Positions 29,268-40,061 are shown, counted from the first letter of the stretch. The stretch: DNA of 64,000 nucleotides from Phormidesmis priestleyi BC1401 (GCF_001650195.1 NZ_LXYR01000017.1:1-64000), one strand, 5' to 3'. Notes: a model not told the origin generated them from the sequence alone. Program-made: numbers and translations.

Positions 29268-30278
29268 ATGACCAGGCAGCGAGTTCTTTCGGGCATTCAA
29301 ACGACGGGCTATCTTCACCTCGGCAATTATCTAGGAGCCATTCGCAATTGGGTCGAAGGGCAGAGTCACTATGACAATTACTTCTTTCTGGCAGATCTTC
29401 ATGCGATTACGGTGCCTCATGACCCAAAAACCCTCGCAGCAGATACTTACACGATCGCAGCGCTCTATCTTGCCTGTGGGCTAGACCTGCAACATTCAAC
29501 TATCTTCGTGCAGTCCCAGGTTCCTGCACACACTGAGTTTGCCTGGTTGTTAAGCTGCATCACACCGCTCAACTGGCTAGAAGACATGATCCAGTTTAAA
29601 GAGAAAGCGGTGAAGCAGGGGCAAGAGGTTGGGACCGGATTGCTCACTTACCCGGTGTTGATGGCATCTGATATTTTGCTTTATGAACCCGATAAAGTGC
29701 CCGTCGGCGAAGACCAGAAACAGCATTTAGAACTGACTCGCGATTTGGTCGATCGCTTCAACTACAAGTTTGGTACGCCTGAAAAGCCTGTTCTCAAACG
29801 TCCCGATCCACTCATTCGGGCAGAGGGAGCGCGGGTAATGAGCCTCACCGATGGCACTCGAAAAATGTCTAAATCAGATCCGTCTGAACTGAGTCGAATC
29901 AATTTACTAGACCCGCCAGACGTGATTCAAAACAAGATTAAGCGCTGCAAAACTGATCCGATTCGAGGGCTTGTGTTTGGCGATCCCGATCGTCCAGAGT
30001 GCAATAATTTGCTCACGCTCTACATGATTTTGTCGAATCAGACCAAAGAAGCAGTCGCCGCAGAATGTCAGGACATGGGCTGGGGACAGTTTAAACCACT
30101 GTTGACTGAAGCGATGATCAGTGCATTGCAGCCAATCCAGGAGAAATATCAAGCCATCATGGATGACCGCAGCTATTTAGAGTCGGTGCTGCGAGACGGG
30201 CGTGAAAAAGCCTCGGCGATCGCCAACAAAACCCTCGCTAAAGCAAAGAAAGCAATGGGATATGCTTTGCCTCTTTAG
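29268..30278 (+). CDS. trpS: Tryptophanyl-tRNA synthetase
   Basis: Class Ic aminoacyl-tRNA synthetase that charges tRNA-Trp. The 336 residues are the usual bacterial length. The HIGH-equivalent YLHLGNYLG lies at about residues 15-23, with SGIQTTG just before it. The KMSKS loop is RKMSKSDPS near 200. Tryptophan-binding residues are in the DILLYEPDKVPVGEDQKQH segment. The start is ATG. The gene appears to stand alone, after the terminator at 29129. Confidence 0.96.
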   Translation: MTRQRVLSGIQTTGYLHLGNYLGAIRNWVEGQSHYDNYFFLADLHAITVPHDPKTLAADTYTIAALYLACGLDLQHSTIFVQSQVPAHTEFAWLLSCITPLNWLEDMIQFKEKAVKQGQEVGTGLLTYPVLMASDILLYEPDKVPVGEDQKQHLELTRDLVDRFNYKFGTPEKPVLKRPDPLIRAEGARVMSLTDGTRKMSKSDPSELSRINLLDPPDVIQNKIKRCKTDPIRGLVFGDPDRPECNNLLTLYMILSNQTKEAVAAECQDMGWGQFKPLLTEAMISALQPIQEKYQAIMDDRSYLESVLRDGREKASAIANKTLAKAKKAMGYALPL

Positions 30279-30413: not shown

Positions 30414-31370
30414 ATGCCTAAAGCTTTACCTCGATCGCCCATGTCCTACCCTTCGCGTCCGCTTCCATCCTTCCGTCTTGCTGCTCAGTCTGGCGAATTT
30501 TTAGTTACGGCTGAAGTGACTCCTCCCAAAGGGGGCAACCCGGCTCATATGCTAGAGATGGCGCAACTTCTGAAGGGGCGAGTCCATGCGGTGAATATCA
30601 CAGATGGCAGTCGGGCAGTGATGCGAATGTGTTCGCTCGTGTCGTCAGCGCTGCTAATGCAGCAAGGAATCGAGCCAATTTGTCAGGTGGCGTGTCGCGA
30701 TCGCAACAGCATCAGCCTCCAAGCCGATCTGCTCGGTGCCCATGCGCTCGGAATCCGCAACATTTTGGCGCTCACAGGCGACCCCGTAAAAGCAGGCGAT
30801 CACATTGATGCAAAAGCCGTCTTTGAACTTGAGTCGGTGCGGTTGCTACAACTGATCGCCAAACTCAATCTGGGCACTGATTGGAACGACCAGCCTTTGA
30901 CCGATGGAGAAACGACCCTATTTATGGGAGCGGCGGTTGACCCTCAATGCGGCAGTTGGTCAGGATTACAGCGTCGATTTGAGCGCAAGGTCGAGGCGGG
31001 TGCTCAGTTTTTTCAGAGTCAGTTGATCTCAGACTTCGATCGCTTAGAAAAATTCATGGATCAGCTTGGCTCTCCCGCTGCAAAGCCTATTCTGGCAGGG
31101 ATTTTTCTACTCAAATCTGCAAAAAATGCCCGATTCATCAATCGCTGTGTGCCTGGAGTCCACATTCCCGATTCCACCATCGATCGCTTAGAACGCGCTG
31201 CTGATCCCCTTCAAGAAGGAGTGACGATTGCAGCAGAACAGGTGCAACTCGCTCGTCAACTCTGCCAAGGCGTACACCTGATGGCAGTCAAACGAGAAGA
31301 TCTGATTCCACAAATTCTCGACCTAGCCGGGATTGCACCCTTAAGTAAGGTGATTCCCGTAACCGTGTGA
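30414..31370 (+). CDS. Methylenetetrahydrofolate reductase-family protein
   Basis: A 318-residue TIM-barrel protein related to MetF, the FAD enzyme making 5-methyl-tetrahydrofolate for methionine synthesis. Visible marks are FLVTAEVTPPKGGNPA (with the catalytic-type Glu), HAVNITDGSRAVMRM, PICQVACRDRN and ILALTGDPVKAGDH, all conserved in the family. The C-terminal ILAGIFLLKSAKNARFINRCVPGVHIPD is also typical. It is about the length of bacterial MetF. The electron donor is not predictable; some family members in this branch work with ferredoxin-linked partners. An alternative start exists at the second Met (residue 9). Confidence 0.82.
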   Translation: MPKALPRSPMSYPSRPLPSFRLAAQSGEFLVTAEVTPPKGGNPAHMLEMAQLLKGRVHAVNITDGSRAVMRMCSLVSSALLMQQGIEPICQVACRDRNSISLQADLLGAHALGIRNILALTGDPVKAGDHIDAKAVFELESVRLLQLIAKLNLGTDWNDQPLTDGETTLFMGAAVDPQCGSWSGLQRRFERKVEAGAQFFQSQLISDFDRLEKFMDQLGSPAAKPILAGIFLLKSAKNARFINRCVPGVHIPDSTIDRLERAADPLQEGVTIAAEQVQLARQLCQGVHLMAVKREDLIPQILDLAGIAPLSKVIPVTV

Positions 31371-31442: not shown

Positions 31443-32744
31443 ATGACCGAAGCCCCCATCACTCACAATCCGTTTATTGTCGGTAGACCTGTTCCACCAG
31501 ACCATTTTGCGGGGCGCACCTCCGCGATCGAGACCGCGTTTGACCAGATTCTCAGCCGCAGCAATCTTGCTATCTGGGGTGGTCCGGGCATTGGCAGATC
31601 GTCTTTTTTAGAGCTACTTGCCTCTCCAAAAGCGTGGCAACTGAGAGGACATGACCCTTCCAGCGCGGTGATCGTCTTGCTGAGTTGCCTGAGCATCACG
31701 CCGTTTAGCGCCGTTAAATTCTGGCGCGAAATCATGCTGCTCACCAAAGATGCGTTAGACAAGGAGCCAGACCTTCAGGCAGAAGTTAGTCAATTTTTAG
31801 ATCAGGGCAACACCACGAAAGATGGACTGCGATCGCTGCTGCGATATTTAGGAAAACAAGACAAGTTTCTCGTGTTGCTGGTCGATGATTATGATGCGGC
31901 TCTGCGTCCTCAAGAGGGCTATAGCGACAACGATATTGCCGTCTTCTTGAGCGACTGCCGAAATATTGCATCTCATTCTAAAGAGCGGCAGTTTCTCTCG
32001 ATGGTCGTGACTTCACTGCGACGACTCAACGAACTCGGACCCAAATTAAAACCCGATGGCTCCCCGTGGTATAATCATTATCTATTTCAGCCGCTCAAGC
32101 CGTTTACCGAGACCGAAGTGGCGACGCTGCTGGGCAGTATGCCGATGACTCCTGCCCTGCGAGATGGCATTCGAGAAATTGCGGGCGGAAATCCGGCTCT
32201 GCTGCAAAATGCAGGTCATCTGCTCTACCGCGAACTGCGAACGGGTCATGTTCCTAACGCTGAGGCATTTGCTCAAGACTTTCAGCAAGCTACAATTCAC
32301 TATTTTGAAGACATTTGGAATCTGGCAACCCAAGTTGAGCAAATCCTGATGATGATGCTTGCCCTCTGTGAGTTAAGAGGTCACCTTCTCAAGAAACGCT
32401 ATGATTTAGGAGACATCGATCTAGTCTTTAGCCAGAAAGAGCGCGAGCTAAACGACCTAGAAGAACGAGGCGTAGTCATATCTCGTGTGCAAGACGGTAA
32501 AAAACTGTATCGATTTGCGTCATCCATGATGGAGTGGTGGGTTGTCAAAGAGATTGAAAACAGCACCGAGGAGACGCTTCAAGAACGGCAGAAAGGATTC
32601 CTTAATCTAATGAGTCACAAACAAGCAGAGAATGTTACAAAAGCAATTCGCTGGTTGTGGCAGCATAAAGAAGAGGTGCCTCCCGTCCTAGAGTGGTTGG
32701 GGAAAGTGTCGGCAGCATTGCCGAAGGGATTGATTCAGGGTTAA
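31443..32744 (+). CDS. Orc1/Cdc6-STAND-like AAA ATPase with atypical Walker A
   Basis: A 433-residue P-loop protein. It opens with NPFIVGRPVPP and FAGRTSAIETAF, like AAA/STAND proteins of the ORC-like group. Walker A is GGPGIGRSS (residues 46-54): the invariant lysine is replaced by R52, from codon AGA. Walker B is present as FLVLLVDDYDA. The region after residue 290 looks like a winged-helix domain with a long helical tail. The substitution suggests it binds ATP weakly or acts as a regulatory partner; this is inference. It is paired 27 bp upstream of a related ATPase with a normal P-loop. Confidence 0.75.
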   Translation: MTEAPITHNPFIVGRPVPPDHFAGRTSAIETAFDQILSRSNLAIWGGPGIGRSSFLELLASPKAWQLRGHDPSSAVIVLLSCLSITPFSAVKFWREIMLLTKDALDKEPDLQAEVSQFLDQGNTTKDGLRSLLRYLGKQDKFLVLLVDDYDAALRPQEGYSDNDIAVFLSDCRNIASHSKERQFLSMVVTSLRRLNELGPKLKPDGSPWYNHYLFQPLKPFTETEVATLLGSMPMTPALRDGIREIAGGNPALLQNAGHLLYRELRTGHVPNAEAFAQDFQQATIHYFEDIWNLATQVEQILMMMLALCELRGHLLKKRYDLGDIDLVFSQKERELNDLEERGVVISRVQDGKKLYRFASSMMEWWVVKEIENSTEETLQERQKGFLNLMSHKQAENVTKAIRWLWQHKEEVPPVLEWLGKVSAALPKGLIQG

Positions 32745-32771
32745 TCTAACCAAATAGCTGACTATACATTT

Positions 32772-34700
32772 ATGAATTTTCCGATCGCTCGGAGAAATCC
32801 TTACATCATTGGTCGCCCGATCACAGAGGCGAATCTATTTTTTGGTCGTGAGAGCCTGTTTCAATTTGTGGCAGACAATCTCCACAAGGGTTCTCAAGTG
32901 ATTTTGCTGCACGGTCAACGCCGCATTGGCAAGTCGTCAGTTCTGGCGCAGATTCCTAATTTCGTTGACCTAGAGAACTTCACCTTTGTTCCGCTATCTT
33001 TAGAAGGAGATAGCCAAAAACCGCTGGGCGAAGTCTTACACGAATTGGCGCGAGATTCCTTAGAACACTTTGGCTTGATTGGCTCGATCGTGCTTCCCTC
33101 GATTTCAGAGTTAGAACACGACCCGAAAATCTTTGTCGATCGCTTTCTTTTACAGTTGCGCCACGCGCTCAAGACTCAAAATCTCGTGCTGTTACTTGAT
33201 GAATTTGACGCGTTTTACAGCCTCAAAGTTGCCGCCGGACACCTCTTTCAATACCTCCAGTCAGAGGTTTATCACCATCCCGATCTCTACATTATTCCAG
33301 TCGTCGGGCGACAGCTCAACGACTTACCCGAACTGGTAAGCCTGTTTCGCGAGGCACCTAATCAAGAAGTTGGGCTGCTCGATCGTCGCAGTGCAGAACG
33401 GCTGATCACGATGCCTGCCGAGGGTTTGCTGGACTATAGCCAAGACGCGATCAACGCGATTTTAGAACTCTCAGCAGGGCATCCCTACTTTACGCAAGTG
33501 GTGTGTTTTGCCGTGTTTTCTCACGCCAGAGAAGAGGATCGCTGGCAGGTGACTCGCGCCGATGTTGAGAGCATTGTCGAAAAAGCGATCGAACTCGGTG
33601 AAGGCGGGTTAGCCTGGTTTTGGGACGGATTGCCGATTCCAGAGCGAGTCGTGTTCTCAGCCGCCGCAGAAGTTCCTGAAGCAAAACTCATCTCTGATCA
33701 GCTTGCCGATGCCGACCTTCTAAACTTCACTCAAGAAGAACCGTTAGCCTCGCTGCGCGATCGCGGAGTCATTCTCACGCCACCTCTCCACGAGGCAGTC
33801 TTCAACCTGGTTGACTGGAAGTTTTTGCAATCGGTGGGGTCAAAATCGCGACCGACCGGAACCACTATTCCTCCTAGAGTTTCGACCTTTAGAGTAACGA
33901 TCGAGCTAGTGAGACGGTGGCTAGTCAGACGACACGCCCTACAGCACGAAGTTTGGGAATTAGAGCGGCTCACCCCCGAAGTCGATCGGCTGTATCAAGA
34001 GATTAGAAGAGCGCGTCCGTTTGGCGTGACCCTCAGCATTATCAGTCGGCTCACTCCGATTTTAGCGGCAAACCCCAACCACTTTGGGGCACTGTTTGAG
34101 ATGGCAGAGTGCTTGATGGAGATTCGTAACTTTAGTCATGCGGTGAAATATTACGATCGTGCCTATCGGGTTGACCCAGTGAGAGCAAAAGACGGCTTTC
34201 TTCAGGCACTGTGGGACTATGGCGACGAACTGCGAGAAGAAGGACATTTAAAGGAAGCTAGAGGGACGCTGGAGCAAGCCCTGGAAATCGTGCCTGATAG
34301 TCCAGAAATTCATGAGGTGTTAGAGGAGATTCGCAAAGAAGAAAAATATAGCGACTATCTCCTCCCCCCACCGAGCTTTGTCGTCAGCTCTCGTGAGTTT
34401 TTAGCAGAAGAAGTGCCGGAAATTGCTTCGACGAGTGACTTAACTGCTCTAGAAGAAAAGTTTAGCGACGTATGGGAACTGGTCGAAGATAAAGCTCCGT
34501 CTGACGTGAAGGATCGTGCTCTAGAGCGATTGGATGAACTCAAAGAAATTTTCACAACTCAAGAACTCAATCTCACCACGATGGCTTACGTGCAGCAATG
34601 GTTTATGAAGCACGTTCCTGCACCCCTCAATGAAGCCGTGAGTCACTTTTTAGAAGAAATCATCTCTAAAGTGATCAAGGAAAAAACAAACTCTAAATAA
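32772..34700 (+). CDS. AAA/STAND ATPase with TPR repeats
   Basis: A 642-residue P-loop ATPase related to the preceding gene: both open with a NP-[FY]-I-[IV]-GRP motif. Walker A is canonical, GQRRIGKSS with K54, and Walker B is LVLLLDEFDAF. The GHPYFTQVVC segment near 237 resembles the sensor/arginine region of ORC-like AAA proteins. Residues about 420-530 contain at least two TPR units (FGALFEMAECLMEIRNFSHA and LREEGHLKEARGTLEQALEI). The last 100 residues are acidic and helical. Such proteins often sense or assemble nucleic-acid or signalling complexes. It is followed after 105 bp by the SNF2 helicase gene. Confidence 0.78.
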   Translation: MNFPIARRNPYIIGRPITEANLFFGRESLFQFVADNLHKGSQVILLHGQRRIGKSSVLAQIPNFVDLENFTFVPLSLEGDSQKPLGEVLHELARDSLEHFGLIGSIVLPSISELEHDPKIFVDRFLLQLRHALKTQNLVLLLDEFDAFYSLKVAAGHLFQYLQSEVYHHPDLYIIPVVGRQLNDLPELVSLFREAPNQEVGLLDRRSAERLITMPAEGLLDYSQDAINAILELSAGHPYFTQVVCFAVFSHAREEDRWQVTRADVESIVEKAIELGEGGLAWFWDGLPIPERVVFSAAAEVPEAKLISDQLADADLLNFTQEEPLASLRDRGVILTPPLHEAVFNLVDWKFLQSVGSKSRPTGTTIPPRVSTFRVTIELVRRWLVRRHALQHEVWELERLTPEVDRLYQEIRRARPFGVTLSIISRLTPILAANPNHFGALFEMAECLMEIRNFSHAVKYYDRAYRVDPVRAKDGFLQALWDYGDELREEGHLKEARGTLEQALEIVPDSPEIHEVLEEIRKEEKYSDYLLPPPSFVVSSREFLAEEVPEIASTSDLTALEEKFSDVWELVEDKAPSDVKDRALERLDELKEIFTTQELNLTTMAYVQQWFMKHVPAPLNEAVSHFLEEIISKVIKEKTNSK

Positions 34701-34805
34701 TCAATTTGCTCATCAACAGACGATCGGCTCTTTTTATCTTCTTAGAATGGGTTGCATTCACCTGCAAACCGCTATAGATTCAAATCAAGCTTGTGAGAAT
34801 TAGTG

Positions 34806-37800
34806 ATGAGAATTCTTCACGGAACTTGGATTCCTCAAACTGAGGATGGGTTTATTCAAAACGGCGCATTCTATGTGTGGGTTGAGACAACTGAGATTCA
34901 TTCGTCAAATCGTGCTGAGATGGTTCATCCTCGTCATCTCGCTGGAGAAGAATTGGTCGCGTTTTTGACGGAAGAATTGGGGATAAAATCGCAGTCTCCG
35001 CAGCCGTTAAAAACAAACATTTCACCCAAATATTTTTTGTTGCCCAGTTCTGATAATCAGCCGCTACCGTCGATCGAGCTAGCGCGATATTTAGAAACCG
35101 ATTTGCCAGAAACGTTTACTTTTCAATATTGGCAAGTTGAGTGTTATCAAACAACGGCGTGGGTGAAAACGGGCGATCGTCCTGAGCGAGTCAATAACGC
35201 GATTAAGTTTCTCAATGATCTGCATTTCTTGGCATTGCATCACTTGACAGACGTGCAGTTGGGAGCGGATTTACTGTTTTGGTATTACTACACCCGATCG
35301 CTGAAGCAGGTGATTTTGAAAGATCACTATATTCCGGCGTTGCGGTTGCGATCGCTGCCTCCAGAAGAGAAGGCTCCTGCGAAAGGAAACCGCAAATCGG
35401 CGGCTTATCAGCAGGCTGTGCCCAAAATTGAAATTCATCCCGCCTGGGAAATCGTTTCTGAGCAATATGAAACTGACCTTCAGCGCTTTGTTGAGTCGAT
35501 GCCGTCTGCCTGTGTTGCTGGGTTTGCAGCTCCACAAAAAACGCCAGAGTTTTACGACAAAGAGCGGTTGCTGCGGCATTTCTCAGAGTGTTTGTTGACT
35601 GAAATTGTGGTCTGCACACCATCGACAACTGCGTTCGACCTCAAAATCACAGATTCTTTAGTCGATAGCTGTCTGCATCGCTGGCGCAAAAAGCGGTCTG
35701 ACGATTTAGAGGTCTATCAACAGTGGCAGACGTGGCGCGATCGGATTCGTCGCACTCAATCCGCAACTGAGTTCTATCTGTGCTTTCAGCTTCAAGCGCC
35801 CGAAAAACCCGAAGAAGCGTGGCAATTAGAATTTCAGATTGCTGCAAAAAACGATCCGTCTTCACGGCTACCGCTGTTGGAGTATTGGCAAACTCGTCCG
35901 AAACAAAAGGAAGAATTGCAGAAACAGTTTGGCGAAAATTTTGAACAAAACTTGCTGTTAAATTTAGGCTACGCGGCGCGGATTTATCCCAATCTTTGGG
36001 CGGGTTTAGAGACCGATCAGCCGACGGAAATTTTCTTAACATTAAGCGATGCGTTTGACTTTCTCAAAGAGTCAGCCTGGGTGTTAGAAGAGGCAGGCTA
36101 TAAAGTCGTCGTTCCTGCCTGGTGGACTCCGAAAGGTCGGAAACGTGCCAAAGTTCGACTGACAGCGCAGAGCGGACGCAAACCCTCTGGCAAAAATAAG
36201 CGCTATTTTTCATTCGATACTCTCGTTGAATATCAGTATGAGTTAGCGATCGGAGATCAGCCCGTCAGCGAACAGGAATGGCAACAGTTAGTCAACGCTA
36301 AAACTCCGCTCGTAAAATTCCGGGGGCAATGGATCGAGCTTGACCAAAACAAAATGCAGCAAATGCTAGAGTTTTGGAAAAATCATCAGCAAGAACATCC
36401 AGAAATGTCACTGCTGGATTTCATGAAAATGAGAGCCAACGCTGATGAAAGTATGGAGGTTGACGTTGATCACGATCGACAGCTCTCCGAGATGATGGCA
36501 AAGCTGAATGATAAAAGTCAGCTAGAACCTGTATCTGATTTAACCGGATTTCAAGGAACGCTGCGAGAATACCAAAAGCGAGGCGTTTCGTGGCTGCGCT
36601 ATTTAGAAGAGTTGGGGCTGAGTGGCTGTCTGGCAGATGATATGGGAATGGGAAAATCAGTACAAGTGATCGCTCGATTGGTACAGGAACGAGAACACGC
36701 TGATAATCAGACCGTCTTACCGACATTATTGATTGCGCCCACGTCGGTCGTCGGCAACTGGCAAAAAGAAATCGAAAAATTTGCACCGCAGTTACGATCG
36801 CTGATTCATCACGGCAGTCAACGCCTCCAAGATACTAAAGAATTCAAATCGATTGTTCAAAATTATGATGTGGTGATCACGTCGTTTACGCTAGTGCGTA
36901 AAGATGAAAAGATGCTGTCGAGTGTCGATTGGCAACGCCTAGTCGTCGATGAAGCACAGAATATCAAGAACCCAAAAGCGGCACAGACGAAAGCGATCGC
37001 TAAACTCCCAGCACATTATCGTCTCGCGCTCACCGGAACGCCCGTTGAAAACCGATTATTAGATCTCTGGTCAATCTTCAACTTCCTCAACCCTGGCTAT
37101 TTAGGAAAGGAAGCGCAGTTTCGTAAATCGTTTGAGATTCCGATTCAAAAAAACAGCGATCGAACTCAATCTGCAACCCTTAAAAAGTTGGTCGAGCCCT
37201 TTATTCTGCGACGAGTCAAAACCGATCCAGCAATCATTTCAGACTTGCCTGATAAAGTTGAACAGAAACTCTACTGCAATCTGACCAAAGAACAAGCCTC
37301 ACTCTATGAAGCGATTGTCAAAGATGTCGACCAACAAATCCAAAACACTGAAGGAATTCAGCGCAAAGGATTGATTTTGGCAACGCTGCTGAAACTCAAA
37401 CAGATTTGCAACCATCCGAGACAATTTCTGCAAGACGATAGCGATTTCACACCGCAGCGATCACACAAGCTCGATCGCTTAACTGAAATGATTAAAGAAG
37501 CCATTGATGAAGGAGAAAGTTTGCTGGTGTTTACGCAATTTACAGACATTGGAGACGCACTAGAAAAATATTGTCGACACACGCTTCACACTAACACTTA
37601 CTATCTGCACGGCGGAACGAATCGCAACAAACGCGAACGGATGATTGCTGAATTTCAAGATCCTGAAACGGAGCCGTCAATCTTTATTTTATCGCTCAAA
37701 GCAGGCGGAGTCGGCATCACGCTCACCAAAGCCAATCACGTTTTTCACTTCGATCGCTGGTGGAACCCCGCAGTCGAAGACCAAGCTACCGATCGAGCAT

Positions 37801-38003
37801 TTCGGATTGGGCAAAAAAAGAATGTTTTCGTCCACAAGTTCGTCGCGATCGGGACTCTGGAAGAACGCATCGATCAAATGATTGAAGATAAGAAAAAACT
37901 GGCTGGCTCGATCGTCGGATCTGATGAGTCGTGGCTGACCGAGTTAGATAACGACGCATTTAAACAACTGATCGCGCTGAATCGAAGTGCCGTAATGGAG
38001 TAA
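34806..38003 (+). CDS. SNF2-family DNA helicase/translocase
   Basis: A 1065-residue Swi2/Snf2-type ATPase from the ATG at 34806 (a GTG one codon earlier is also possible). The first 570 residues form the N-terminal region seen in bacterial SNF2 proteins, with no separate motif read here. The helicase core follows: motif I DDMGMGKS near 616, the DEAQ box VVDEAQNIKNP near 715, LTGTPVENRL, then HELICc with LSLKAGGVGITLTKA and QATDRAFRIGQ. Such proteins translocate on duplex DNA and remodel DNA-protein complexes. The next gene, 5 bp away, is a SWIM protein, a common bacterial pairing. Confidence 0.93.
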   Translation: MRILHGTWIPQTEDGFIQNGAFYVWVETTEIHSSNRAEMVHPRHLAGEELVAFLTEELGIKSQSPQPLKTNISPKYFLLPSSDNQPLPSIELARYLETDLPETFTFQYWQVECYQTTAWVKTGDRPERVNNAIKFLNDLHFLALHHLTDVQLGADLLFWYYYTRSLKQVILKDHYIPALRLRSLPPEEKAPAKGNRKSAAYQQAVPKIEIHPAWEIVSEQYETDLQRFVESMPSACVAGFAAPQKTPEFYDKERLLRHFSECLLTEIVVCTPSTTAFDLKITDSLVDSCLHRWRKKRSDDLEVYQQWQTWRDRIRRTQSATEFYLCFQLQAPEKPEEAWQLEFQIAAKNDPSSRLPLLEYWQTRPKQKEELQKQFGENFEQNLLLNLGYAARIYPNLWAGLETDQPTEIFLTLSDAFDFLKESAWVLEEAGYKVVVPAWWTPKGRKRAKVRLTAQSGRKPSGKNKRYFSFDTLVEYQYELAIGDQPVSEQEWQQLVNAKTPLVKFRGQWIELDQNKMQQMLEFWKNHQQEHPEMSLLDFMKMRANADESMEVDVDHDRQLSEMMAKLNDKSQLEPVSDLTGFQGTLREYQKRGVSWLRYLEELGLSGCLADDMGMGKSVQVIARLVQEREHADNQTVLPTLLIAPTSVVGNWQKEIEKFAPQLRSLIHHGSQRLQDTKEFKSIVQNYDVVITSFTLVRKDEKMLSSVDWQRLVVDEAQNIKNPKAAQTKAIAKLPAHYRLALTGTPVENRLLDLWSIFNFLNPGYLGKEAQFRKSFEIPIQKNSDRTQSATLKKLVEPFILRRVKTDPAIISDLPDKVEQKLYCNLTKEQASLYEAIVKDVDQQIQNTEGIQRKGLILATLLKLKQICNHPRQFLQDDSDFTPQRSHKLDRLTEMIKEAIDEGESLLVFTQFTDIGDALEKYCRHTLHTNTYYLHGGTNRNKRERMIAEFQDPETEPSIFILSLKAGGVGITLTKANHVFHFDRWWNPAVEDQATDRAFRIGQKKNVFVHKFVAIGTLEERIDQMIEDKKKLAGSIVGSDESWLTELDNDAFKQLIALNRSAVME

Positions 38004-38008
38004 CTGCA

Positions 38009-38845
38009 ATGGCTCAGTTTAGTCGAACCTGGTGGGGAAGACGATTTATTGCCGCGCTGGAAGAATTCACCGATCCGGGGCGATTAAGTCGAGGTCGATC
38101 GTATGCCAATGGCGGCAGAATCAAAAGTTTTGAGATCAAAGAAGGCGTTGCAACCGCGCAGGTTCGCGGTTCGGTAAATCCTTATTTTGGCGTTTATAAA
38201 GAACCGCTCTACACTACAGTGATCGAGATTAAGTCAATCAGTGCAGCAAATTGGTCAGCCGCGATCGCGTATGTGGCATCTAAAGCAGGATTCATCTCTA
38301 AACTTCTGCTCAACGAGATGCCCGACAATATTGAAGATGCCTTTTCAACGCTAGGACTGCACCTATTGCCGCACCAACGATCAGACTTCAAAACCCGTTG
38401 TTCGTGTCCCGACTCTAGCAACCCCTGTAAACACATTGCAGGAGTCTATTATTTGCTGGCGGCGAAGCTCGATCGTGACCCGTTTTTGCTGTTTGAACTG
38501 CGAGGACTTTCAAGAACTGATCTGCACGCCGAATTAGCTAAATCCCCGTTAGGAATGGCGCTTTCTCAAGAGTTGGCGGCTGAACAATCAACGCCTACTC
38601 CGGTGGAATCGTACTACACCAAGCTGGATACGATCGCCGCATCTGATGTGAGCCTTAAAGACTTTTGGCAGGGAAGTAAGCGATTGCCTGCGGCGATCCA
38701 GCCTGAAACCCAGAATAGCGTCTCTGCCATCGTGATCAAAAAACAGGGCGACTTTCCGGCTTTTTGGCACAAAGACAGTTCGTTCATCGCCACAATGGAA
38801 GAGCTATATCAGCGAGTCAAAACCAAAAATCGCGAGATCCTATAG
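38009..38845 (+). CDS. SWIM zinc-finger protein
   Basis: A 278-residue protein with a SWIM-type zinc finger, CxCx6CxH: C131, C133, C140 and H142 in CSCPDSSNPCKH. SWIM domains bind DNA or proteins. The start codon lies 5 bp after the SNF2 stop, so co-expression is almost certain. The N-terminal FSRTWWGRRFIAALEEF is a recurrent opening of these SNF2-linked SWIM proteins. The last 29 bp overlap the 3' end of the convergent phosphatase-like gene. Confidence 0.9.
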   Translation: MAQFSRTWWGRRFIAALEEFTDPGRLSRGRSYANGGRIKSFEIKEGVATAQVRGSVNPYFGVYKEPLYTTVIEIKSISAANWSAAIAYVASKAGFISKLLLNEMPDNIEDAFSTLGLHLLPHQRSDFKTRCSCPDSSNPCKHIAGVYYLLAAKLDRDPFLLFELRGLSRTDLHAELAKSPLGMALSQELAAEQSTPTPVESYYTKLDTIAASDVSLKDFWQGSKRLPAAIQPETQNSVSAIVIKKQGDFPAFWHKDSSFIATMEELYQRVKTKNREIL

Positions 38846-39326
38846 CGTTTGGGTCATCAAATTGAAAGATCGGACTATAGTCGTAAATCGCTCGTTGAAT
38901 AAATTCTTGCCACGTCTCATTTGGAATCCAAATTTTATGTAAATCTGATTTTGCTTGCTGATCATCCCAGCGATCGTACAAGCGATGATAGAGATACATG
39001 AAAACAGAAACCCTCATATTCTTAGCGCAGTGAATAAAAATAGGTATTTCAGTGTTTTCCATCACGATTGGAAAAAATTGGTCGAGGTGTCCAAACGTCG
39101 GCTTTGTCCAAGCCACGGGAATATGGGTGTACTGAAGTCCTAGCGATTCCACAATTTCCCTCTCGTGAGGAATCGCATTCGTCGAGTTAGGAGGCGCTAG
39201 ATTCACAATGACTTGATAGCCCGCTTCTTTGATCGCTGCGAACTGTTCCTCAGTTGGCTGTCCTGCGGTGGCGACGTAATCCGACAACTTCAGAAAGTTG
39301 TAAATCGCTTCGATTCCTTCAGCCAT
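38817..39326 (-). CDS. Tyrosine-phosphatase-like protein (DSP/beta-lactamase-hydrolase-like family)
   Basis: A small 169-residue protein from the ATG at 39326. The N-terminal half, with YVATAGQPTEEQFAAIKEAGY and VNLAPP, is characteristic of the DUF442/dual-specificity-like phosphatase family. The catalytic signature reads HCAKNMR (C100 to R105): four residues lie between Cys and Arg where the classical loop has five. The spacing may be a family variant, or activity may be altered. It converges with the SWIM gene, overlapping it by 29 bp, and starts just after the pspA stop, so it is probably transcribed with pspA. Confidence 0.78.
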   Translation of the reverse strand: MAEGIEAIYNFLKLSDYVATAGQPTEEQFAAIKEAGYQVIVNLAPPNSTNAIPHEREIVESLGLQYTHIPVAWTKPTFGHLDQFFPIVMENTEIPIFIHCAKNMRVSVFMYLYHRLYDRWDDQQAKSDLHKIWIPNETWQEFIQRAIYDYSPIFQFDDPNAIGSRDFWF

Positions 39327-39332
39327 AACCAA

Positions 39333-40061
39333 TCAATTGCCGCGAATCTGCGATCGCAACTTCTCCAATTCAGGATCGACTTCTGGCAGTTGAGCAGGAC
39401 TACCCGCCGTAAGCTGATTTTTCATTGAGGCTAACTCTGCGTCAATGTCATCGGCTTCGCCTAGCGACTCAAATCGTTTCTCTAAATCATCAGTGCCTAG
39501 TTCGGCGATCGCTTCTGACTGTGCCTCTAGCTGCAACACTTTTTCTTCCATCCGCTCAAACGCACTCATCGCGCTACCCGTGCCCACATTGCTCAACATT
39601 TCATTAAGCTGCTGAGACGCTTTCGCAGACCGAGCGCGAGCAATATAGAGGTCTTTTTTGGTCTTCGCTTCTGAGATTTTGCTCTCCAGCTTCATCATGT
39701 TTTGCTTAAGCTGAGTGACGATCGTTCGCTGCTGAGTTAACTGCGCGTCCATCGCGTCTGCCGTCTCTTGATAAGATTTGCGACGGGTCAATGCCTCTCT
39801 CGCCAACGGTTCGTCGCCTTTTTGCAGCGCCAATTGAGCGCGACGATACCATTCTTCCGACATTGACTTTGCCTGAGAACACTGCCGCTCTGTGCGTTTT
39901 TGCGTCGCGATCGCTTGAGCCACCGCCTGCCGAAGATGAATCAGGTCCTCCTGCATGTCCAGCACAGCCTGCTCCAGAATCTTTTCTGGGTCTTCTGCCT
40001 GACCTACCAGGTGGTTAATGTTTGCACGAATCGCTCGCCAAATTCGGTCAAAAAGTCCCAT
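39333..40061 (-). CDS. PspA/IM30 (Vipp1) family membrane-remodelling protein
   Basis: A 242-residue coiled-coil protein of the ESCRT-III-related PspA/Vipp1 family. The amphipathic N-terminal helix is MGLFDRIWRAIRANINHL, followed by long helices with EDPEKILEQAVLDMQEDL. Members maintain membrane integrity; the Vipp1 branch is needed for thylakoids. The C-terminal end after residue 220 (LPEVDPELEKLRSQIRGN) is shorter than the extension of classical Vipp1, so PspA versus Vipp1 cannot be decided. Its stop codon is 6 bp from the start of the phosphatase-like gene. Confidence 0.88.
   Translation of the reverse strand: MGLFDRIWRAIRANINHLVGQAEDPEKILEQAVLDMQEDLIHLRQAVAQAIATQKRTERQCSQAKSMSEEWYRRAQLALQKGDEPLAREALTRRKSYQETADAMDAQLTQQRTIVTQLKQNMMKLESKISEAKTKKDLYIARARSAKASQQLNEMLSNVGTGSAMSAFERMEEKVLQLEAQSEAIAELGTDDLEKRFESLGEADDIDAELASMKNQLTAGSPAQLPEVDPELEKLRSQIRGN

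Follow-up and report, generated by a model that had tools for sequence, protein, structure and literature searches.

Among the described systems closest to the locus treated here are the Npun2340/2341 family of the MNS clade of STAND NTPases (Leipe et al., 2004, cited in PMC8195603) and the two-gene nSTAND2 systems, in which an inactive partner carries a GT4 or HEPN domain (PMC8195603, Fig. 6C). The locus, at positions 31,443 to 38,845 of a 64,000-nucleotide stretch of Phormidesmis priestleyi BC1401 (GCF_001650195.1, NZ_LXYR01000017.1:1-64000; this whole stretch is referred to as the window), contains four genes, which encode two ATPases (ATPase1 and ATPase2), a SNF2-family translocase and a SWIM zinc-finger protein. 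A first-pass annotation had proposed that the four genes form one system, with the ATPases as sensors and SNF2-SWIM as effectors. Here, the locus is found to consist of two gene pairs that were almost certainly inherited independently, and the four-gene system is dropped in favor of a firmer unit, the ATPase1-ATPase2 pair.

The Npun2340/2341 family, whose name suggests two neighbouring genes of Nostoc punctiforme, resembles the window pair in its P-loop STAND core and its cyanobacterial occurrence, as far as the description in the citing paper goes, and was compared by that description only. The nSTAND2 systems likewise consist of adjacent genes that both encode STAND NTPases, one of them with variable fused domains. 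They differ from the window, where the variable domain lies at the C-terminus of ATPase2 and the motifs of this subunit are intact, not eroded as in an inactive partner; the nSTAND2 core (PF20702) gave no match to the window proteins at 0.01 and matched several relatives at 4e-14 to 2e-7. Avs/NLR-like sensors share with the window unit a core of nucleotide-binding, helical and winged-helix regions, helical repeats (ATPase2 against Avs3, 8dgc, Z 13.6) and the swapping of effectors, whereas the window unit has two ATPase chains and, in the window clade, varies at the C-terminus, and no Avs match to the ATPase pair was returned by PADLOC. The pair is of the same general kind as that of Kaur et al., but its arrangement differs. 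The other two genes resemble the Sll1366-like SNF2-SWIM pair, in which a SNF2 translocase with a DUF3670 region is followed by a SWIM protein. The best NCBIfam scores of the window SNF2 were for the SCO1167 and sll1366 families, but they lie below both equivalog cut-offs (277.5 bits against a curated score of 550 for the sll1366 family, NF058636).

The paired STAND ATPases

ATPase1 and ATPase2 are identified with high confidence as a pair of STAND ATPases of the archaeal-ATPase/NLR type. The structure models of both (pLDDT 87 for ATPase1 and 84 for ATPase2) matched best the archaeal ATPase PDB 2qen (Z 22.5 and 19.8, respectively), and 2fna, ORC/Cdc6, the plant NLR RPP1 and CED-4 ranked lower, the best matches spanning about 300-330 residues; the ORC/STAND-like nature supposed in the first pass is thus confirmed. 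Pfam gave weak AAA_16/nSTAND1 matches for both proteins and TPR for ATPase2. The Walker motifs of ATPase2 (GQRRIGKSS and LLLDEFD) are conserved, as are Walker A and B of ATPase1 across its family. A near-invariant G-x-P follows the nucleotide-binding domain in both proteins (GNP at 249-251 in ATPase1, GHP at 236-238 in ATPase2), so that the pair has the Walker A/B motifs (with Arg for the Walker A Lys in window ATPase1), the G-x-P and the nucleotide-binding, helical and winged-helix fold of STAND ATPases. An hhalign comparison of ATPase1 with ATPase2 aligned insertion columns, and it was left out of account. The fold alone does not show the function.

Independent inheritance of the two pairs

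The nearest genome to the window is a congener, G001, matching Phormidesmis priestleyi ULC007. It has trpS, MTHFR, ATPase1 and ATPase2 in the same order as the window (identity 93, 92, 88, and 84%), followed by an unrelated gene on the opposite strand, and its DNA match to the window stops at 34671, in the last ATPase2 codons (within the final 30 bp). The SNF2 and SWIM genes of the congener lie on a different contig, with 65 and 63% identity, and the right flank of the window maps to two further contigs. Synonymous divergence (dS, NG86 method) from the congener was 0.83-0.92 for trpS, MTHFR and both ATPases and 3.4, a saturated value, for SNF2; it was not computable for SWIM. In the SNF2 and SWIM trees, the window genome groups with members of f24, a different family, and not with the congener (local support 0.92 and 0.89). 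Because of the dS contrast, the separate contig and these trees, the SNF2-SWIM copies of the window are most simply explained as xenologues or long-separated paralogues. As for the ATPase pair, trpS lies 5' of it in the congener and in several other genera, and its locus is this trpS-MTHFR neighbourhood, not a defence island.

The co-occurrence analysis covered 242 genomes of the class. Of these, 20 have ATPase1, and strong ATPase2 matches were found in 17, all within those 20. A SWIM match served as the proxy for the SNF2 pair, SNF2 itself being searched in 23 genomes only, and the window-type SWIM was separated from its paralogue by a cut-off of about 52% identity, chosen by eye. Window-type SWIM occurs in 91 genomes and overlaps with ATPase1 in 8 of the 20, against 7.5 expected (p=0.81), i.e., at chance level. 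The neighbourhoods of 77 named loci found by the ATPase1 profile, with flanks up to 9 kb, point the same way: ATPase2 adjoins ATPase1 on the same strand in 71, the exceptions being mostly cut contigs, fragments or fused open reading frames (ORFs), and SNF2 or SWIM is found near the ATPase1 relative in none. Pairwise distances of ATPase1 and ATPase2 are correlated (r 0.91, 16 genomes); in the eight genomes that also have SNF2, the correlation is 0.94 for ATPase1-ATPase2 and 0.33 for ATPase1-SNF2. The tandem ATPases are therefore a unit, as the first-pass annotation assumed, and its statement that SNF2+SWIM is a common pair also holds, the two genes being directly adjacent on one strand in 14 of about 18 loci examined around these genes.

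Two observations weigh against this separation. In G142, about 4 kb separates the ATPase pair from SNF2-SWIM, and opposite-strand genes lie in this interval. In addition, the gap from ATPase2 to SNF2 yielded neither a promoter nor a terminator, the scans being at chance level, and co-transcription in the window species is therefore possible. Both could be cited for a four-gene system in which ATPases detecting damage or invader DNA would direct the SNF2-SWIM translocase, as could the common strand, the short gaps and the resemblance of the SNF2 sequence to the defence helicases ZorD, DpdE, and DrmD. However, the SNF2 protein falls far short of the NCBIfam cut-offs for these three helicases, and the loose G142 case is the single exception among the relatives examined, all others having the two pairs apart. 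Together with the synteny break in the congener, the chance co-occurrence, the 77 neighbourhoods without SNF2 or SWIM, the weak distance correlation and the unlike dS, this makes the four-gene system hardly tenable, and the module was rejected on the synteny, co-occurrence, neighbourhood and distance tests. What stands of the earlier interpretation is the ORC/STAND fold, the tandem ATPases and the SNF2+SWIM pair; the joining of the four genes does not, the ATPases being found apart from SNF2/SWIM in related genomes. That the junction is an assembly artefact joining two loci is very improbable: the genome is a draft of 213 contigs and the join is seen solely there, but the gap is ordinary and the genes on either side are intact. 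The joining of the two pairs is no more than chance, and two two-gene units were probably brought side by side by a lineage-specific rearrangement. As a separate observation, decayed SNF2 and ATPase1 gene fragments lie on separate contigs of one genome, G148 (L061 and L062).

Exchangeable domains and the role of the ATPase pair

ATPase1 is the constant partner, without an added domain, and the C-terminus of ATPase2 is variable. The helical tail of the window protein also ends ATPase2 in seven other window-clade genomes compared. Elsewhere its place is taken by Pkinase (G009), FGE-sulfatase (G105), Peripla_BP_6 (G113 and G142) or a second ATPase1-like domain (G168 and G200), and in L081/L082 ATPase2 is fused to an ATPase1-like copy. 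The commonest tail cluster among the 77 loci comprises 56 proteins, and all three that were scanned carry Peripla_BP_6; kinase, GAF, SH3_3, and nSTAND1 tails also occur. ATPase2 of the Peripla_BP_6 cluster is frequently encoded by two genes in tandem after ATPase1 (L079, L080, and L133-L199), and in 45 of the 56 proteins the linker region (residues 380-760) includes a transmembrane-like segment. This layout suggests a cytosolic ATPase linked through the membrane to a ligand-binding domain. No account of the Peripla_BP arrangement turned up in the literature searches made, a weak sign that it may be new.

Tandem ATPases are also found among distant relatives. ATPase2-like genes of about 25-30% identity again have a smaller same-strand ATPase upstream: among 20 loci drawn from the ATPase2 list regardless of their neighbours, the small-then-large order was found in 16 (three with an intervening small ORF or a split large gene), another order in two, a fragmentary locus in one and a lone gene in one. 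Several transmembrane-like segments lie in the N-terminal region of the larger ATPase in 14 of 14 checked. In cyanobacterial pairs, the smaller one carries TIR_2 (L093, with L091 just under the cut-off) or Trypsin_2 (L086, L089, and L097). In L099 (2223-5585), a single 1120-aa chain combines TIR with both ATPase domains, and this locus has flanking genes in common with the two-gene L091 pair. The strongest argument for joint action of the two ATPases is this L099 fusion, though it comes from distant relatives.

The locus is probably an NLR-like two-subunit signalling switch that abuts an unrelated SNF2-SWIM pair. Taken by itself, the view that the ATPase pair is a signalling switch seems likely on balance, and an anti-invader role for it is doubtful. 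In the proposed mechanism, ATPase2 would be the receptor-like subunit, its exchangeable C-terminus serving to sense a ligand or to dock an output protein. Binding of the signal would switch the nucleotide-binding/winged-helix core between its ADP and ATP states, and ATPase2 and ATPase1 would then co-assemble into the active complex. The separate inheritance of the two units, the adjacency of the ATPases, the domain swapping and the fold are direct results; the hetero-assembly, which has support from domain-level fusions in relatives, and the nucleotide switch are inferred. Because it ends in a small tail that is soluble and helical, window ATPase2 is probably a cytosolic adaptor. Three features of the window pair count against such a switch. 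An effector or ligand domain is not recognisable in it, and the signalling role is therefore argued from relatives; the tail domain has no second copy in the window genome; and codon 52 of ATPase1 (31596-31598) is AGA, giving Arg for the near-invariant Walker A Lys. The congener keeps the Lys, and the same GRS is seen in L165 and L175, from two other genera; our guess is that the substitution would suit a partner needing little hydrolysis of its own.

What the switch would serve can be read in different ways. The pair is quite possibly, though short of probably, a housekeeping regulator of stress, nutrient or developmental responses, whose receptor would read small molecules, often through a periplasmic-binding domain. 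Peripla_BP_6 in the largest C-terminal cluster, the linker transmembrane-like segment in most of its members, vertical inheritance by trpS-MTHFR within the family and strong purifying selection all favor this possibility, whereas the patchy presence (20 of 242 genomes) and the domain swapping do not, fusions to TIR, trypsin and FGE-sulfatase being typical of conflict systems (PMC8195603). The same fusions bear on an alternative that we consider unlikely, a cyanobacterial anti-phage or cell-suicide NLR-like system. The STAND fold is near that of NLR and CED-4, distant pairs have TIR and trypsin effectors, and STAND-FGS and two-gene STAND systems were predicted to counter invaders (PMC8195603). 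Nevertheless, the window pair lacks an effector, its locus is stable and housekeeping, and Peripla_BP sensing is unlike known defence; no PADLOC model matched ATPase1, and ATPase2 had only weak matches to TPR models (E 0.002-0.008). Tentatively, the pairs may be read as widespread, little-described cyanobacterial dual-STAND receptors, bacterial analogues of paired NLRs, in which a constant soluble ATPase is encoded with a second ATPase bearing an exchangeable sensor, often a ligand-binding domain on the periplasmic side of a membrane anchor, with TIR/protease effectors in distant members. Among the loci recovered, paired STAND ATPases with swapped sensors occur mainly in filamentous and colonial cyanobacteria. 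Should they function as paired receptors, plant paired NLRs would have a bacterial counterpart, and extracytoplasmic ligand sensing would be connected to STAND switches.

Stand-alone proteins of the tail domain, 140-147 aa long, were also seen (L101:5004-5426, L102:5334-5768, and L103:5318-5761). Their N-terminal motif, G-x-Q-[ILV]-A-[IM]-G-like, is reminiscent of RHIM/amyloid signalling motifs. An EAD-like adaptor role of the window tail, with partners in the same genome, was rejected on its single occurrence there.

Features of the locus and the SNF2-SWIM pair

The four same-strand ORFs of the first-pass annotation were recovered by the ORF and Pfam check (Table 1), with gaps of 27, 102-105, and 5 bp in order. 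The products have 433 aa (ATPase1), 642 aa (ATPase2) and 278 aa (SWIM protein); that of SNF2 has 1066 aa if it starts at GTG 34803 and 1065 aa if it starts at ATG 34806. The four ORFs are taken as real genes because the ratio of nonsynonymous to synonymous divergence (dN/dS) of the ATPases against the congener is low, at about 0.07 (ATPase1) and 0.11 (ATPase2).

Table 1. Features of the locus, with window positions and the basis of each assignment
Feature	Position	Strand	Basis or remark
trpS	29268..30278	+	tRNA-synt_1b 1.5e-77; housekeeping flank marking the conserved ATPase-pair locus, outside the system
MTHFR	30414..31370	+	MTHFR 3.3e-52 and synteny; immediately 5' of ATPase1 across the family, outside the system
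ATPase1, STAND/archaeal-type with helical and winged-helix regions	31443..32744	+	AAA_16 2.9e-5; model; G-x-P
ATPase1 Walker A GGPGIGRS	31578..31601	+	Alignment, codon check
ATPase2	32772..34700	+	STAND ATPase at about residues 1-390, TPR at about 420-520, variable C-terminus
ATPase2 C-terminal helical tail, about 85 aa	34440..34694	+	Position exchanged for other domains in relatives
Junction between both units	34672..34802		Congener synteny stops here
SNF2-family translocase with DUF3670, separate unit	34803..38003	+	SNF2-rel_dom 7.5e-77, DUF3670 2.3e-45, Helicase_C 3e-20
SWIM zinc-finger protein, SNF2 partner	38009..38845	+	PF04434 4.6e-6

The SWIM finger, C-x-C-x6-C-x-H (CSCPDSSNPCKH), lies at about residues 126-148. 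The pairing of SWIM with SNF2 proteins was reportedly described in 2002, and we take YwqA-YwqB of B. subtilis to be such a pair. PMC7385302 places the YwqA translocase among enzymes that act on stalled RNA polymerase. Literature searches on SNF2-SWIM function and sll1366 found no functional study of the pair. SNF2+SWIM is a widespread DNA translocase with a zinc-finger partner, probably acting on DNA or stalled polymerases, and it has no demonstrated tie to the ATPase pair. PADLOC matched SNF2 to ZorD/DpdE models through the helicase region, under the NCBIfam cut-offs; its identity as a Zorya, DISARM or Dpd helicase was rejected, the helicase domain alone being in common. One SNF2-SWIM pair (L047) lies on a 93 kb contig of a four-contig genome (G210:C4), possibly a plasmid, which is consistent with mobility of the pair. 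Downstream, a DSP-phosphatase-like gene on the minus strand (38817-39332) overlaps the 3' end of the SWIM gene by 29 bp and is followed by a PspA/IM30 gene, also on the minus strand (39333-40061).

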